Assembly: GCF_001281265.1 (NCBI RefSeq)
Contig: NZ_JXDB01000013.1
Coordinates: 1-59,447 of the forward strand
Source: Apilactobacillus kunkeei DSM 12361 = ATCC 700308
Lineage (GTDB): Bacteria > Bacillota > Bacilli > Lactobacillales > Lactobacillaceae
DNA length: 59,447 nt
Direction: 5' to 3'
Each line of letters begins with the position of its first letter. Position 1 is the first letter of the stretch. Below the pieces are notes generated by a model. The model was not told the DNA's origin, did not search any database, and was given only the letters and a program-made list of their open reading frames with translations. Positions 23,424 to 33,101 of the stretch are shown one piece after another. The translations under genes were made by a program, and so were the position numbers.

Positions 23424-23455
23424 AAAGACCCCCGAAATTAATTCGGGGTTTTTTT
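23424..23455. terminator. Bidirectional terminator between LRR protein and GH70 fragment
   Basis: CCCCGAA pairs with TTCGGGG, flanked by A and T runs, between two convergent genes. Confidence 0.85.
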
Positions 23456-24101
23456 AGAATAGAGAATTTAAGCGTTTTAAATCATTAATATTAAATTTAC
23501 GATGCTTACCATCAACTAATTTATTACTCTTTTCGTCATGATTTACCAAACTATATTGAGATTGATCTTTAATAAATTCCTTAATAATTGCTTTTAACCA
23601 CTTAGTGCTCTTAGTTTGGGTGATTTTCATCTCGACTTCTTTTTGAATAACTTGCGTAGCGTCGTTTAAATCCTTTTGTGAACTGGTAATATCATATGTA
23701 TCATCGCCATAATCAAAGTATTCGTTCATAAAATTGATATATTGTGTTTCTAGACGTTTACTTGGCCACCATGCCATAAGAATTGGTCGACGATCCTTAG
23801 AAGTTGAGTTTTCCCACTTTTGCCCATTTCTAAGAATCATCTTTGGTCGATACCACGTGTTAAATGTCAGGTACCCGTCTACAGTTGATATGTTTTGTTC
23901 ATCAATCTTGTAAAACGCATTATTTTTCGAATAATTGTTTTGCGGATTATACGCTGGTTTTACAATTCCTGAAGTTTCCGCTCTTGAATTCGAGATTGAT
24001 AAAATCAAACCAACTCCAAACAATGCTGCCACTATCATTGCACAAGTCACAATCGACAATAGCAGTTTTTTGCGCAAGAAACTCAGCTGTCCTTTTTTCA
24101 T
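23454..24101 (-). CDS. Truncated GH70 glucansucrase-like membrane protein
   Basis: 215 residues. Residues 1-about 40 hold a basic start and a single hydrophobic segment (signal peptide or anchor). The rest matches the beginning of the glucansucrase (GH70) region: STVDGYLTFNTWYRPKMILRNG, RRPILMAWWPSK, a QYINFMNEYF helix, and ITQTKSTKWLKAIIKEFI, all typical of dextransucrase domains IV, B and the entry to the A domain. It ends LKRLNSLF-stop, before the regions that carry the nucleophile Asp and acid Glu, so it cannot be an active sucrase. ATG at 24101 has GGAG eight bases upstream. It may be a remnant or a repurposed stand-alone module. Confidence 0.7.
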   Translation of the reverse strand: MKKGQLSFLRKKLLLSIVTCAMIVAALFGVGLILSISNSRAETSGIVKPAYNPQNNYSKNNAFYKIDEQNISTVDGYLTFNTWYRPKMILRNGQKWENSTSKDRRPILMAWWPSKRLETQYINFMNEYFDYGDDTYDITSSQKDLNDATQVIQKEVEMKITQTKSTKWLKAIIKEFIKDQSQYSLVNHDEKSNKLVDGKHRKFNINDLKRLNSLF

Positions 24102-24222
24102 TATAAGCACTCCTAGTTTCATATTATGATACTAATTTTACCACAAAAGAATATTTCTCTTGCTTCATTGATAAAATCATGAAATATTAGATATTATTGT
24201 TTAATTCTAGGAGATGTTTATA

Positions 24223-26209: not shown

Positions 26210-26689
26210 TCATTTATGATATGGACTACCTTCATTAATCATGAAGGCACGATAAATTTGTTCAGTTAGCACTAAACGCATCAATTGATGTGGCAAAGTA
26301 AAACGACCAAATGAAATTTGAGTGTCAGCACGTTTTAAAACCTTTGGTGCAAGACCAAGCGATCCACCAATCACAAAAGTAATATCTGAATGACCATATG
26401 TGGCCAACTTATCAATTTCTTTGGCGAATTCTTCAGATGCACGTTCTTTTCCAAGAATAGCTAGTGCATATACATACTCCTTGTCAGCAATCTTATCTAA
26501 AATTCTGGTTCCCTCTTTATCCATGACGTCTTGCATCTCAGATTCACTAAGGGATTCAGGCGCTTTCTCATCTGGAACTTCAATAATCCGAAACTTACAA
26601 AAACGTGATAAACGCTTGCTGTACTCATCAATTCCGGCCTTAAAATACTTTTCTTTTAATTTTCCAACCACAACTAGTTTAATATTCAT
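26210..26689 (-). CDS. rlmH: 23S rRNA (pseudouridine1915-N3)-methyltransferase
   Basis: 159 residues, exactly the family length, starting [16 protein letters not shown] after an AAGGAG site. SPOUT-fold enzyme that methylates pseudouridine 1915 in helix 69 of 23S rRNA on the assembled ribosome. The knot motif [17 protein letters not shown] and the C-terminal [30 protein letters not shown] are intact. Its 3' end resembles the region used as SCC attachment site in staphylococci, but no such element is present. In many Firmicutes the gene lies close to the replication origin; here a DnaA-box cluster stands immediately upstream. Confidence 0.97.
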
Positions 26690-26720: not shown

Positions 26721-26750
26721 ACTATATTTAGTATGTGGAAATGTTGTTAA
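26721..26750 (-). promoter_or_regulatory. Candidate rlmH promoter
   Basis: Minus strand TTAACA (26750-26745), an 18-base spacer and TATAGT (26726-26721). A DnaA-like motif ATTTCCACA lies in the spacer. Confidence 0.45.
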
Positions 26751-26762
26751 CTACTACTAATA

Positions 26763-26924
26763 TTGTCCACAGATTGTCAAGGTTTTTCACGAGTTATCCA
26801 CAACTGTGTATATGCCATTTCGACCCGTGTAACACTCAAGAAATATTGACACACAGGCGTTTAACAGCACCGCGTTTTCCGTGTAACTTTCTTTTCCACA
26901 ATGTTATCCACAGAGTTATCCACA
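26763..26924 (+). other. Cluster of DnaA boxes (candidate oriC or DnaA-binding locus)
   Basis: Three perfect TTATCCACA boxes (26794-26802, 26904-26912, 26916-26924) and two near-matches, TTGTCCACA (26763-26771) and TTTTCCACA (26892-26900), all in the same orientation. The last three start 12 bases apart. On the left edge the minus strand reads TTAGTAGTAG (26751-26760), reminiscent of DnaA-trio triplets. The density is far above chance for an AT-rich genome and typical of a replication origin or a DnaA-titrating locus. No dnaA or dnaN is in the window. Confidence 0.65.
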
Positions 26925-27107
26925 TGAGGTGGAAAACTAAAAAATGGCGATAATTATTGATTTTTCGGGCATATATATAGATCGAAAAAATTTTAATTCT
27001 TCTAGTTATACACCGAATGTATGTTTTTTTCTTTGTGAAAAGTTTTGGATTAAAATTTCACAAAGATTATTATACAAAATTAAGTAATCGTTCGTAAAAT
27101 TTTATAT
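26925..27107. other. AT-rich gene-free stretch beside the DnaA boxes
   Basis: No gene is seen. The DNA is strongly AT-rich (for example around 26948-26965 and 26970-27000) and follows the DnaA-box array directly, as an unwinding element would. No other recognisable element except the DyP terminator at its right edge. Confidence 0.5.
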
Positions 27108-27136
27108 AAAAAAAGCGTTGAATTTAATCAACGCTC
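27108..27136 (-). terminator. Terminator after the DyP peroxidase gene
   Basis: AGCGTTGA pairs with TCAACGCT and runs into T residues on the minus strand. Confidence 0.85.
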
Positions 27137-27153
27137 TCATAAATAAATGGTAA

Positions 27154-28104
27154 TTATTTAGTTGGTAATTCGCCTTCAACGATTTGGTCTAACGTTGTCA
27201 TAGAAGGAATAAAGAACACGTTACCGGTCACTGGATCAGAAAAATCTAGTAAGCGGTCGGATTGCCCAAACATGTTTTCAAGCATGCGCTTAGTAACTGT
27301 CCAATGTCTAGCATAACCAATGAAGTATGTTCCGGTCTTACCTGAACTAGGATCTGAGAATGGGACATTCATTCTGACAATCTTGTGTTCAACACCATCG
27401 TCGTTATCTTGAGATGCGACGTTATGAGAATTTTCCAATTTTTCGTCATCTTCTAATTCTAAATCGGAGTATTTTTTTCTTCCGATAGCCTTTTCTTGGT
27501 CTTCCGTCTTTAATGCATTCCAAGCATCCATGTTGTGGATGTATTTTTGGGCAAATGCGTATGAACCATTTTCAAAATCAGGATCTTCATCCCCAATAAT
27601 AGCGTATCCTGAAGCCTTTTGAATTTCAGGATTTTCAGTTCCATCAACAAATCCGATGATAGCTCGACCTTCAAAATATCTAAATCCCTTTGTTTCATCT
27701 TCAACGGTTGCAAAATCACGGTAGTAATTTCTAATTTGACTAGCAACTTCATATACAACTGCTTCTGAATCAGCACGAATGTGGATAAATAAATCGGCAG
27801 GTGTTGATGGTGAAGTATATTTAGGTCCCTTCACTGGTTTAAAGTCTTCTAATTCTTGTGGCTTCTTCGCGTCAGCAAATAGATAATCCCATGCTGAGTT
27901 AGAGAACCCAAACGCTACTTTCAAATGTTCTTCAGGATATCTGATATTCATTGAACGTAAAATGGCTTGTTCTCTAGATACTAATTCGACAACTTTTTCA
28001 CGGTCATCGTCTGCGTTACTTCTATTAATAGTTAATGTCGTAAATAATACATTTTTTCCCGCATCTTTATATACGTCTTGTGCATCAGTAGGATCGAATG
28101 GCAT
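27154..28104 (-). CDS. DyP-type haem peroxidase
   Basis: 316 residues, normal for the family. Dye-decolourising peroxidases use a haem b and H2O2 to oxidise varied substrates. The hallmark GxxDG motif is present as GFVDGTENP with distal Asp154; H227 in ENSHNVAS is the likely proximal haem ligand, and the distal Arg is in FIGYARHW. No twin-arginine or Sec signal is seen, so the enzyme is cytoplasmic, and no encapsulin gene is adjacent. Divergent from the catalase gene, with a perfect PerR box 21 bases before its start codon. Confidence 0.9.
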   Translation of the reverse strand: MPFDPTDAQDVYKDAGKNVLFTTLTINRSNADDDREKVVELVSREQAILRSMNIRYPEEHLKVAFGFSNSAWDYLFADAKKPQELEDFKPVKGPKYTSPSTPADLFIHIRADSEAVVYEVASQIRNYYRDFATVEDETKGFRYFEGRAIIGFVDGTENPEIQKASGYAIIGDEDPDFENGSYAFAQKYIHNMDAWNALKTEDQEKAIGRKKYSDLELEDDEKLENSHNVASQDNDDGVEHKIVRMNVPFSDPSSGKTGTYFIGYARHWTVTKRMLENMFGQSDRLLDFSDPVTGNVFFIPSMTTLDQIVEGELPTK

Positions 28105-29924: not shown

Positions 29925-30296
29925 TTGAATAACGTTACAAAATCTTTTATCAAATTCACAGTAATCGCATTTACATCATTATTAATTTTATTTGCAATTA
30001 ATTTCGCTAAAAACGACATTCATGCTGATGCCTCAGTTAACTGGCAACACGTTGCTGAAAAGAATCTAAGCAAGAAAAACATCGCCGCAAGACGCTGGAT
30101 TTCATTTCACGAATCAACTAACAGATATCATGCAAGAAACGGTGTTTGTTACGGTAAGTTCCAATTAGATATCAGCTACCTACATGGTGATAAATCAAAG
30201 AAGAACCAAGAATTAACTGCCAACAGATACGTTGCTAGTCGTTACGGTTCATGGGTTAACGCCAAGAAATTCTGGCAAAGACACCACTGGTACTAA
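29925..30296 (+). CDS. Apf/transglycosylase-like secreted protein
   Basis: 123 residues. A signal peptide (hydrophobic 10-28, cleavage near IHADA) is followed by a compact C-terminal domain: AARRWISFHESTNRYHARNGVCYGKFQLDISYL and ANRYVASRYGSWVNAKKFWQRHHWY. This is the C-terminal domain of lactobacillus aggregation-promoting factors and related cell-wall proteins, with a lysozyme-like Glu in HES. No LysM domain, so it is a minimal form. Starts at TTG, nine bases after GGAG; an ATG six bases earlier is out of frame and stops at once. Probably acts in cell-wall remodelling or cell shape. Confidence 0.82.
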   Translation: MNNVTKSFIKFTVIAFTSLLILFAINFAKNDIHADASVNWQHVAEKNLSKKNIAARRWISFHESTNRYHARNGVCYGKFQLDISYLHGDKSKKNQELTANRYVASRYGSWVNAKKFWQRHHWY

Positions 30297-31595: not shown

Positions 31596-33101
31596 ATGGA
31601 AAAATACACTAGCACTAGAGATAAAAATATCGAAATTAGTTCGTTTGATGCGATTATCAAGGGCTTTTCGGATGACGGTGGCTTATTCGTTCTGCCAGAC
31701 TTAGCCAGTCATAATATTAATATCGATAAAGTTATCGACCAAAGTTACCAAGAAATTGCCTTCGATGTTGTTAAAGCATTGCTACCTGAATTTTCAGACT
31801 TCCAAATCGCCAACAGCATTCACGAAGCATACGATGATGGTTTCGATGATTACGAAATTACACCTATTAAAGATGTCGATAACTTCTCAGTTCTAGAATT
31901 ATTCCATGGTCCCACCTGTGCATTCAAAGACGTCGGACTTCAATTATTACCAAAACTAATGCAACAATGCCTACCTGAAAACAAGCACGTAATGGTACTA
32001 GCAGCTACTAGTGGTGACACCGGTACTGCTGCCCTTGCTGGTTTTAAAGATGTCGACAAGATGGGGGCAATGGTCTTCTACCCACAAAACGGAGTCAGCA
32101 TGGTACAAAAACAGCAAATGTTGACCACTAAGGGTTACAATACCAGAGTTGCTGCTATCAATGGTAATTTTGACGACGCGCAAACTAACGTCAAAAAAAT
32201 CTTCAACAACCAAGTACTAAAGGAAAAAATTGGTGATGGCAACTCACTATCAAGTGCTAACTCAATTAATATCGGTCGTTTAGTTCCACAAATCGTTTAC
32301 TATTTCGATGCTTACAAGCAAATGGTCAAAAACGGGAAAATAAACGTTGGGGACGAAATCATCTTCACCGTCCCTACCGGAAACTTTGGGGATGTTTTAG
32401 CCGGATACTACGCCAAGTTATTAGGACTACCCGTGAAGAAACTAGTAATTGCATGTAACTCAAATAAAGTCTTAGCAGATTTCTTTGAAAATGGTGTTTA
32501 TGATCGTAACCGTCCATTTTTTAAGACAATTGCGCCAAGTATGGATATCCAAATTTCTAGCAACTTCGAACGTCTTTTGTATTACAAGAGCGGTGAAAAC
32601 GTTGATTATGTAAAGGCACTAATGGATGACTTAGAACATGATGGCAAGTATGAAGTACTTCCAGAAATATTGGCATCCATCAAAGAAGATTTCATCTGCG
32701 GATACAGTGATGATGAAGAAATAAAAGCATCCATTAAGGAAGTCTTTGAAAAATATCACTACCTAATGGATCCGCACACTGCTTCCGGATACCGTGTTAC
32801 ACGTGAAACACAAGCTAATTATCCAGATACACCTGTCGTAATGCTAAGTACAGCTAGTCCATATAAATTTGTCGACGCAGTTGCTGATGCCATCATCGGC
32901 GAACACCGTCAAAATCCAATTGAAACTAGTGATCTATTAGTTGAAAAGACTGGAATCGAAATGCCAGAACAACTAAGACAAATCTGGCACGATGAAGCTA
33001 TTGTCCCTGCCAAAATCAATCCTGAAGAAATGGAAGAATTGGTGGTCGATACAATAAAGGATGTGTTTGAAAATGATAAAAGTAAGAGTTCCCGCAACTA
33101 G
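31596..33101 (+). CDS. thrC: Threonine synthase
   Basis: 501 residues, the long (E. coli/yeast-like) type. Converts O-phosphohomoserine to threonine with PLP. The N-terminus YTSTRDKNIEISSFDAIIKGFSDDGGLFVLP is typical, PLP Lys111 is in FHGPTCAFKDVG, and LAATSGDTGTAAL and the phosphate-binding TVPTGNFGD follow. AGGAGG precedes the start. It leads a three-gene unit with thrB, whose start lies inside its 3' end, and an ACT-domain regulator. Confidence 0.96.
   Translation: MEKYTSTRDKNIEISSFDAIIKGFSDDGGLFVLPDLASHNINIDKVIDQSYQEIAFDVVKALLPEFSDFQIANSIHEAYDDGFDDYEITPIKDVDNFSVLELFHGPTCAFKDVGLQLLPKLMQQCLPENKHVMVLAATSGDTGTAALAGFKDVDKMGAMVFYPQNGVSMVQKQQMLTTKGYNTRVAAINGNFDDAQTNVKKIFNNQVLKEKIGDGNSLSSANSINIGRLVPQIVYYFDAYKQMVKNGKINVGDEIIFTVPTGNFGDVLAGYYAKLLGLPVKKLVIACNSNKVLADFFENGVYDRNRPFFKTIAPSMDIQISSNFERLLYYKSGENVDYVKALMDDLEHDGKYEVLPEILASIKEDFICGYSDDEEIKASIKEVFEKYHYLMDPHTASGYRVTRETQANYPDTPVVMLSTASPYKFVDAVADAIIGEHRQNPIETSDLLVEKTGIEMPEQLRQIWHDEAIVPAKINPEEMEELVVDTIKDVFENDKSKSSRN

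Follow-up and report, generated by a model that had tools for sequence, protein, structure and literature searches.

A DnaA-box cluster upstream of rlmH in Apilactobacillus kunkeei, a probable counterpart of the yydA cluster of Bacillus subtilis

Results

Features of the rlmH locus

The window analysed here is a stretch of 59,447 nucleotides of the genome of Apilactobacillus kunkeei DSM 12361 (contig NZ_JXDB01000013.1). It contains the gene rlmH, whose assignment in a preliminary description of this DNA agrees with matches to both PF02590 and NF000985, and whose product is 100% identical to the RlmH protein of Apilactobacillus waqarii and 99% identical to that of A. nanyangensis. The following features were recognized at this locus:

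26210..26689, minus strand: rlmH, 23S rRNA (pseudouridine1915-N3)-methyltransferase (PF02590, 2.8e-57; NF000985, 2e-77)
26721..26750, minus strand: candidate rlmH promoter, TTAACA-18-TATAGT (consensus scan)
26734..26742, minus strand: weak DnaA-like motif ATTTCCACA, two mismatches, in the candidate rlmH promoter (box scan)
26751..26759, minus strand: TAGTAGTAG run adjoining the candidate promoter, without the geometry of the oriC trio (sequence, alignment)
26763..26771, plus strand: DnaA box TTGTCCACA, one mismatch (box scan)
26794..26802, plus strand: DnaA box TTATCCACA, exact (box scan)
26892..26900, plus strand: DnaA box TTTTCCACA, one mismatch, opening a triplet spaced by 12 bases (box scan)
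26904..26912, plus strand: DnaA box TTATCCACA, exact (box scan)
26916..26924, plus strand: DnaA box TTATCCACA, exact (box scan)
26928..26936, minus strand: weak DnaA-like motif TTTTCCACC, two mismatches (box scan)
26938..27110, no strand: AT-rich DNA (79% AT) separating the boxes from the terminator (base composition)
27111..27138, minus strand: intrinsic-terminator-like hairpin 3' of the Dyp peroxidase gene (1 found, 0.2 expected)
27154..28104, minus strand: Dyp-type peroxidase gene, the far-side neighbour (profile matches)

The preliminary description had drawn attention to a row of DnaA boxes in one orientation, and this was borne out: three exact and two one-mismatch boxes, all on the plus strand, occupy 162 bases (26763-26924), and the last three start exactly 12 bases apart (26892, 26904 and 26916). 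The AT-rich DNA noted 3' of the boxes is also real, with 79% AT at 26938-27110 versus 59% in the box span and 64% in the window. Two further elements stood only in part. The TAG run is present (minus strand, 26759-26751), but it lies 5' of its box, whereas at this genome's oriC the run is on the 3' side; the sixth motif, ATTTCCACA, does lie in the candidate rlmH promoter, but with two mismatches it is weak. The candidate promoter is itself weak, because four promoter-like sites were found versus 2.9 expected. A TACTAAATATAGT-like stretch at this position is common to most Apilactobacillus rows of the alignment, as is a minus-strand near-palindrome within the candidate promoter (ACTAAATATAGT, 26721-26733), which is possibly the site of a second regulator.

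The total number of boxes with at most one mismatch in the window is barely above chance, because 29 were found versus 21.2 expected and 29 was reached in 4 of 100 shuffles. The densest 200 bases of the window are those described here, with five boxes, and the next densest place has two; by simple arithmetic, about 0.03 such boxes are expected per 162 bases per strand. In the 1.5-Mb assembly the pattern TTDTCCACA has 70 matches (reversed-pattern control, 42), and three dense groups were found by eye: six boxes in 305 bases at the end of contig C16, four in 83 bases on contig C1 (1349-1431), and the five in 162 bases at rlmH. The group that follows these, three boxes in 290 bases on contig C9, lies within a coding frame; this group (C9:141630-141885) consists of degenerate boxes inside a frame of 629 aa and was taken as chance. 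No other group as dense was seen outside oriC when the TTDTCCACA matches of the assembly were inspected by eye. At rlmH, several boxes are packed into an intergenic region outside oriC, as in the non-oriC clusters of the B. subtilis type.

Relation to the replication origin

The combination of DnaA boxes, a GGCCC motif, a DnaA-trio and AT-rich DNA constitutes the unwinding architecture of Bacilli origins. In agreement with the preliminary description, dnaA lies outside the window: Bac_DnaA_C has a single match in the genome, on contig C1. The box group at the end of C16 is situated in the rpmH-dnaA intergenic region and the C1 group between dnaA and dnaN (rpmH and dnaN recognized by eye); together they are a bipartite oriC around dnaA, on contigs other than that of rlmH. 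In the dnaA-dnaN region, boxes are accompanied by GGCCC, CTACTACTA and AT-rich DNA (1450-1500, 80% AT). No such module of box, GC cluster, DnaA-trio and AT-rich DNA follows the boxes of the rlmH cluster, and the full module was present at none of 136 Lactobacillaceae rlmH loci (0.3 in shuffles, the oriC of this genome being the sole positive control), while a trio run after a box occurred at one of these 136 loci, versus 3.0 in shuffles. The GC skew, calculated in 3-kb steps within the window only, ranges from -0.14 to -0.055, becoming weaker rightward; the values to the left and right of the cluster are both negative, with no change of sign there and hence no switch of the kind that marks an oriC. 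The suggestion that the array is a displaced or second part of oriC is not supported, given the bipartite oriC at dnaA, the missing skew switch and the missing box-GC-trio arrangement.

By homology, the window would nevertheless be origin-near. In a one-contig genome of the same genus rlmH lies 94 kb from dnaA, and the window has a parS-like site at 32795. The earlier statement that rlmH is origin-proximal in many Firmicutes holds for the family, with a median distance from dnaA of 45 kb in the 76 genomes measured; in 73 of these 76, rlmH is directed away from dnaA.

Conservation of the cluster upstream of rlmH

Comparison of the rlmH upstream region in relatives, which the preliminary description had proposed, started from 80 named rlmH loci, in which boxes with at most one mismatch were counted in the 400 bases upstream. 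At least three boxes were present in 77 of them, and exact boxes numbered 319 versus 0.4 in base shuffles; in the remaining three (L012, L036 and L046) the cluster is still upstream, farther off. Under a wider definition (at least three boxes in the 1 kb 5' of rlmH, one of them exact), a cluster was found at 113 of 116 loci of Lactobacillaceae, 9 of 11 in the rest of the order and 51 of 96 in the rest of the class, thus at 60 of the 107 Bacilli loci outside Lactobacillaceae, a sample drawn from 145 other genomes with rlmH. None of 25 loci from the rest of the phylum (the best-scoring 25 of 237 genomes) had such a cluster, nor did the downstream side of rlmH at any of 248 loci. After addition of 52 genomes, 20 of which were picked for a far or divergent rlmH, the cluster was present at 145 of 154 distinct Lactobacillaceae sequences. 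Among the nine others, L012 holds its cluster 1.6-2 kb away, four loci (L111, L252, L305, L306) have 4-7 boxes, none exact, and four (L262, L265, L266, L268) have 0-2 boxes. Five loci fall outside the 154, one with a cluster (L259) and four without (L256, L257, L313, L314).

The cluster is dispensable, since 47 of the 107 other Bacilli loci fall short of this definition, as do two genomes belonging to the same Lactobacillaceae genus, in which rlmH is located mid-chromosome. Families without it include f137 (0 of 10 loci), f148 (0 of 5), f124 (0 of 4), f4 and f143 (0 of 3 each) and several represented by a single locus. The class loci without a cluster are richer in G+C (47% versus 40%), which may lower their box counts; the 25 loci from the rest of the phylum have 39% G+C and still no cluster. 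One cluster-bearing family has a member whose RlmH protein is nearest to YydA of B. subtilis, and another has a member whose RlmH is nearest to that of Staphylococcus aureus. Pairs of exact boxes separated by 0-20 bases were found at 94 places, of which 52 are by rlmH, 31 by dnaA and 11 elsewhere; 57 of the 121 genomes have such a pair.

In 19 loci of the Levilactobacillus type, picked for their typical layout (the Levilactobacillus loci L036, L044, L045 and L046 being left out), box columns are 90% identical versus 61% for spacers. This stronger conservation of boxes than of spacers pertains to the Levilactobacillus-type loci and not to Apilactobacillus itself, whose box layout is unlike that of other genera, a point against the reading preferred below. 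The doublet at 26904/26916 also occurs 5' of rlmH in three genomes of the same genus (G058, G087 and G112).

Box geometry

Boxes on the same strand are preferentially spaced by 10, 12-13, 20-21, 87-88, 97-98 and 107-110 bases. Their helical phasing is a new observation. With one locus per family in 16 families outside Lactobacillaceae, which are interrelated, the phasing statistic R was 0.26-0.32 at periods of 10-10.75 bases, versus a null 95th percentile of 0.15-0.17, and phasing was gone at 11.0 bases (R 0.10). The best period, 10.75 bases, comes from a small grid applied to related rows, for which the one-per-family test is the fairer. Judged from the spacing, such phasing would suit DnaA protomers arranged on one face of the helix.

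Neighbouring genes and distance from dnaA

The cluster can persist when the flanking gene changes, an observation that is new. The gene on the far side varies by genus: it is htrA-like at 45 of 78 loci, encodes PgpA at 12, and is the Dyp peroxidase gene at four loci, all of Apilactobacillus. These neighbours were called by a simple ORF rule, with Pfam applied to two htrA-like and one PgpA product; several other far-side calls are short frames within the intergenic region and are uninformative. On the rlmH side, an ORF of the TnpB family separates cluster and gene in L012, and about 500 bases of other DNA do so in L036 and L046, where one box remains at -27. In genus g12 the cluster is absent at rlmH in all four genomes examined; one genome of this genus, G047, has eight boxes beside htrA, a metallo-hydrolase gene and yycI, with rlmH 18 kb off. 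No cluster was found 5' of rlmH in G009 and G046, in which rlmH is at least 1.09 Mb from dnaA, and none was seen in about 20 kb 5' of rlmH in G076 and G116. A possible detached cluster in G035 (89269-89473), made up of two box pairs in inverted arrangement next to a GH70 gene, is ambiguous.

Also new is the finding that presence of the cluster follows the distance between rlmH and dnaA. The comparison covered 79 of 121 genomes, with both genes on one contig (three measured across record ends); G052, G053 and G108 were left out, although the two genes share a contig there as well. All 66 genomes in which rlmH and dnaA are at most 100 kb apart had a cluster of at least three boxes, versus 7 of 13 with a greater distance, without correction for phylogeny. 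A cut-off of 60 kb gave 50/50 versus 23/29 and one of 120 kb gave 69/70 versus 4/9; the cut-offs were all chosen afterwards, the counts are likewise phylogeny-uncorrected, and the six genomes without a cluster at rlmH span four genera. Against the trend, the cluster is retained in two genomes with rlmH about 315 kb from dnaA, and G047 has it at another place instead of having lost it.

Discussion

The yydA region of B. subtilis provides the closest known parallel. According to PMC4447404, it is among the eight strongest of 269 regions bound by DnaA in vitro, and of these 269 only the eight were readily detected in vivo, some further regions being bound in vivo only, with Rok; for the yydA region (region 8 in Table 1 of that source), seven sites and an apparent Kd of 0.16 uM (ATP) and 0.33 uM (ADP) are given. 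The gene yydA is rlmH (the RlmH relative of PDB entry 1to0 bears the name yydA), so that the A. kunkeei array shares the gene context of a proven cluster. Gene, side and the presence of several boxes are the same; the number, order and spacing of the boxes differ, yyzF is located at this place in B. subtilis, and that species has several other clusters, whereas outside oriC no second group of this density was seen in the A. kunkeei assembly. Deletion of six non-oriC clusters leads to early initiation in B. subtilis (Okumura 2012, as reported in the reviews PMC5295017 and PMC13220808), and the yydA cluster would be one of the six, since two of the eight bound regions lie in oriC. One review describes a strong effect as requiring joint removal of several clusters, and another mentions about tenfold overproduction of DnaA without over-initiation, which speaks against titration (PMC5295017 / PMC13220808). 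Like the array at rlmH, the six-cluster set consists of DnaA boxes that are located outside oriC and presumed to retain DnaA; in lactobacilli, DnaA binding, titration and function are attributed here by analogy. In the open-licence literature searched (most subscription papers lie outside it), we found neither a paper on this cluster in lactobacilli nor binding or deletion results for a lactobacillus.

Titration of DnaA, one of the options raised in the preliminary description, is the best-supported reading, through the conservation of the cluster and its DnaA-bound B. subtilis counterpart. The array is a non-oriC DnaA-box cluster (DBC), probably the counterpart of the yydA cluster and an old, origin-proximal DnaA titration or timing site of Bacilli, which may also affect rlmH transcription; the cluster is real and old, and probably functional in replication timing. 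DnaA would probably bind the five boxes together and cooperatively: neighbouring protomers could touch, because the boxes of such clusters are helically phased and three of those described here are 12 bases apart. Being near the origin, the cluster would be duplicated soon after initiation and then take up DnaA, which would help to prevent early re-initiation; in E. coli, the density of origin-near boxes is regarded as an advantageous trait for titration (PMC12371093). Occupancy may in addition alter transcription of rlmH, because the box at 26763 ends 12 bases upstream of the candidate -35 element.

A broader proposal can be made only tentatively, since we are about as ready to doubt as to accept it. 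The htrA-rlmH cluster might be one old DnaA timing element of Bacilli, maintained because of its proximity to the origin, not because of the genes beside it. It would then stay in place when htrA or rlmH is replaced or moved, decay once its locus has drifted far away from dnaA, and build a DnaA assembly that is helically phased; in lactobacilli with small genomes it might be the chief or the sole element of this type outside oriC, a functional equivalent of datA without IHF.

Four other explanations deserve consideration. That chance or base composition made the cluster has virtually no credibility: the window count of boxes with at most one mismatch is indeed near expectation, but the clustering speaks against it and conservation in other genera has already refuted it. 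It is also very improbable that the array fires by itself as a displaced or second part of oriC. The density of the boxes and the AT-rich DNA beside them would befit an origin, and the boxes are the same as those of the bipartite oriC of Bacilli, at similar density; yet the bipartite oriC of this genome sits at dnaA, whereas the rlmH cluster does not and is without the GGCCC and DnaA-trio module (none at 136 loci, 0.3 in shuffles, with a single positive control), the GC skew does not change sign, and in most of the relatives measured tens of kb separate rlmH from dnaA.

More weight, although it is still unlikely, can be given to the idea that the cluster is mainly an operator making rlmH transcription respond to DnaA, with titration secondary. 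DnaA appears to repress the yyzF-yydD operon of B. subtilis (PMC4447404), the boxes lie 5' of rlmH with the candidate promoter adjoining the proximal one, and a 12-base doublet is found at about -42/-30 in several genera among the loci listed. Such a role is hard to reconcile with G047, which keeps the cluster without an adjoining rlmH, or with the TnpB-family ORF in L012 and the 500 or so bases in L036 and L046 (with their one box at -27); moreover, in Apilactobacillus the boxes are placed differently with respect to rlmH, boxes extend to about -350, and the presence of the cluster follows the distance from dnaA. That the cluster is a datA/DARS-like site at which DnaA-bound nucleotide is hydrolysed or exchanged, instead of a passive sink, is improbable. 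The phased boxes and conserved spacing suggest a structured complex, and datA, DARS1 and DARS2 of E. coli are likewise DnaA-box loci outside oriC acting on initiation. These loci differ in acting on the DnaA nucleotide state and in working with IHF/Fis, while B. subtilis, per one review, is without an IHF homologue and its known regulators act on DnaA oligomerisation (PMC5295017 / PMC13220808).

Since the cluster is conserved, independent of single neighbours and tied to origin distance, replication control, and not any one gene, appears to be the reason for its maintenance. Clusters of this kind are known; what makes the present one valuable is that the pattern spans the family and that this genome has one dense cluster outside oriC. 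B. subtilis has several clusters; a lactobacillus with a single dense non-oriC cluster would make a one-deletion test possible.

Other observations

Several loci contain parS-like sites. In the window, TGTTACACGTGAAACA (32795-32810, plus strand) lies 6 kb from the cluster, in a frame resembling threonine synthase by eye, and fits the parS consensus, TGTTNCACGTGAAACA. Palindromes of this type (at most two mismatches) occur at 19 of 300 rlmH loci versus 1.2 for shuffled palindromes; the 19 are L036 and L046, with the site about 226 bases 5' of rlmH, and 17 further loci. In two Levilactobacillus loci the site separates the DnaA cluster from rlmH (L287 and L036 are probably one genome).

An identity of 18 bases, GTGGAAAACTAAAAAATG, links the cluster edge (26929-26946) with the rpmH-dnaA region on C16 (G000; L254), the upstream half of oriC, and its core is found 5' of rlmH in three close relatives only. 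The dnaA region of another genome of the genus (G022, C37, 2537-4310; L258) has 20 exact TTATCCACA boxes, far more than in the A. kunkeei genome, several of them as inverted pairs.

Elsewhere in the window, a 222-aa ORF (23454-24122, minus strand), whose match to glycosyl hydrolase family 70 is confined to the first 83 of its 831 positions, is perhaps a glucansucrase remnant, and a protein of 123 aa with a domain like the C-terminal one of aggregation-promoting factors is encoded at 29925-30296 (plus strand).
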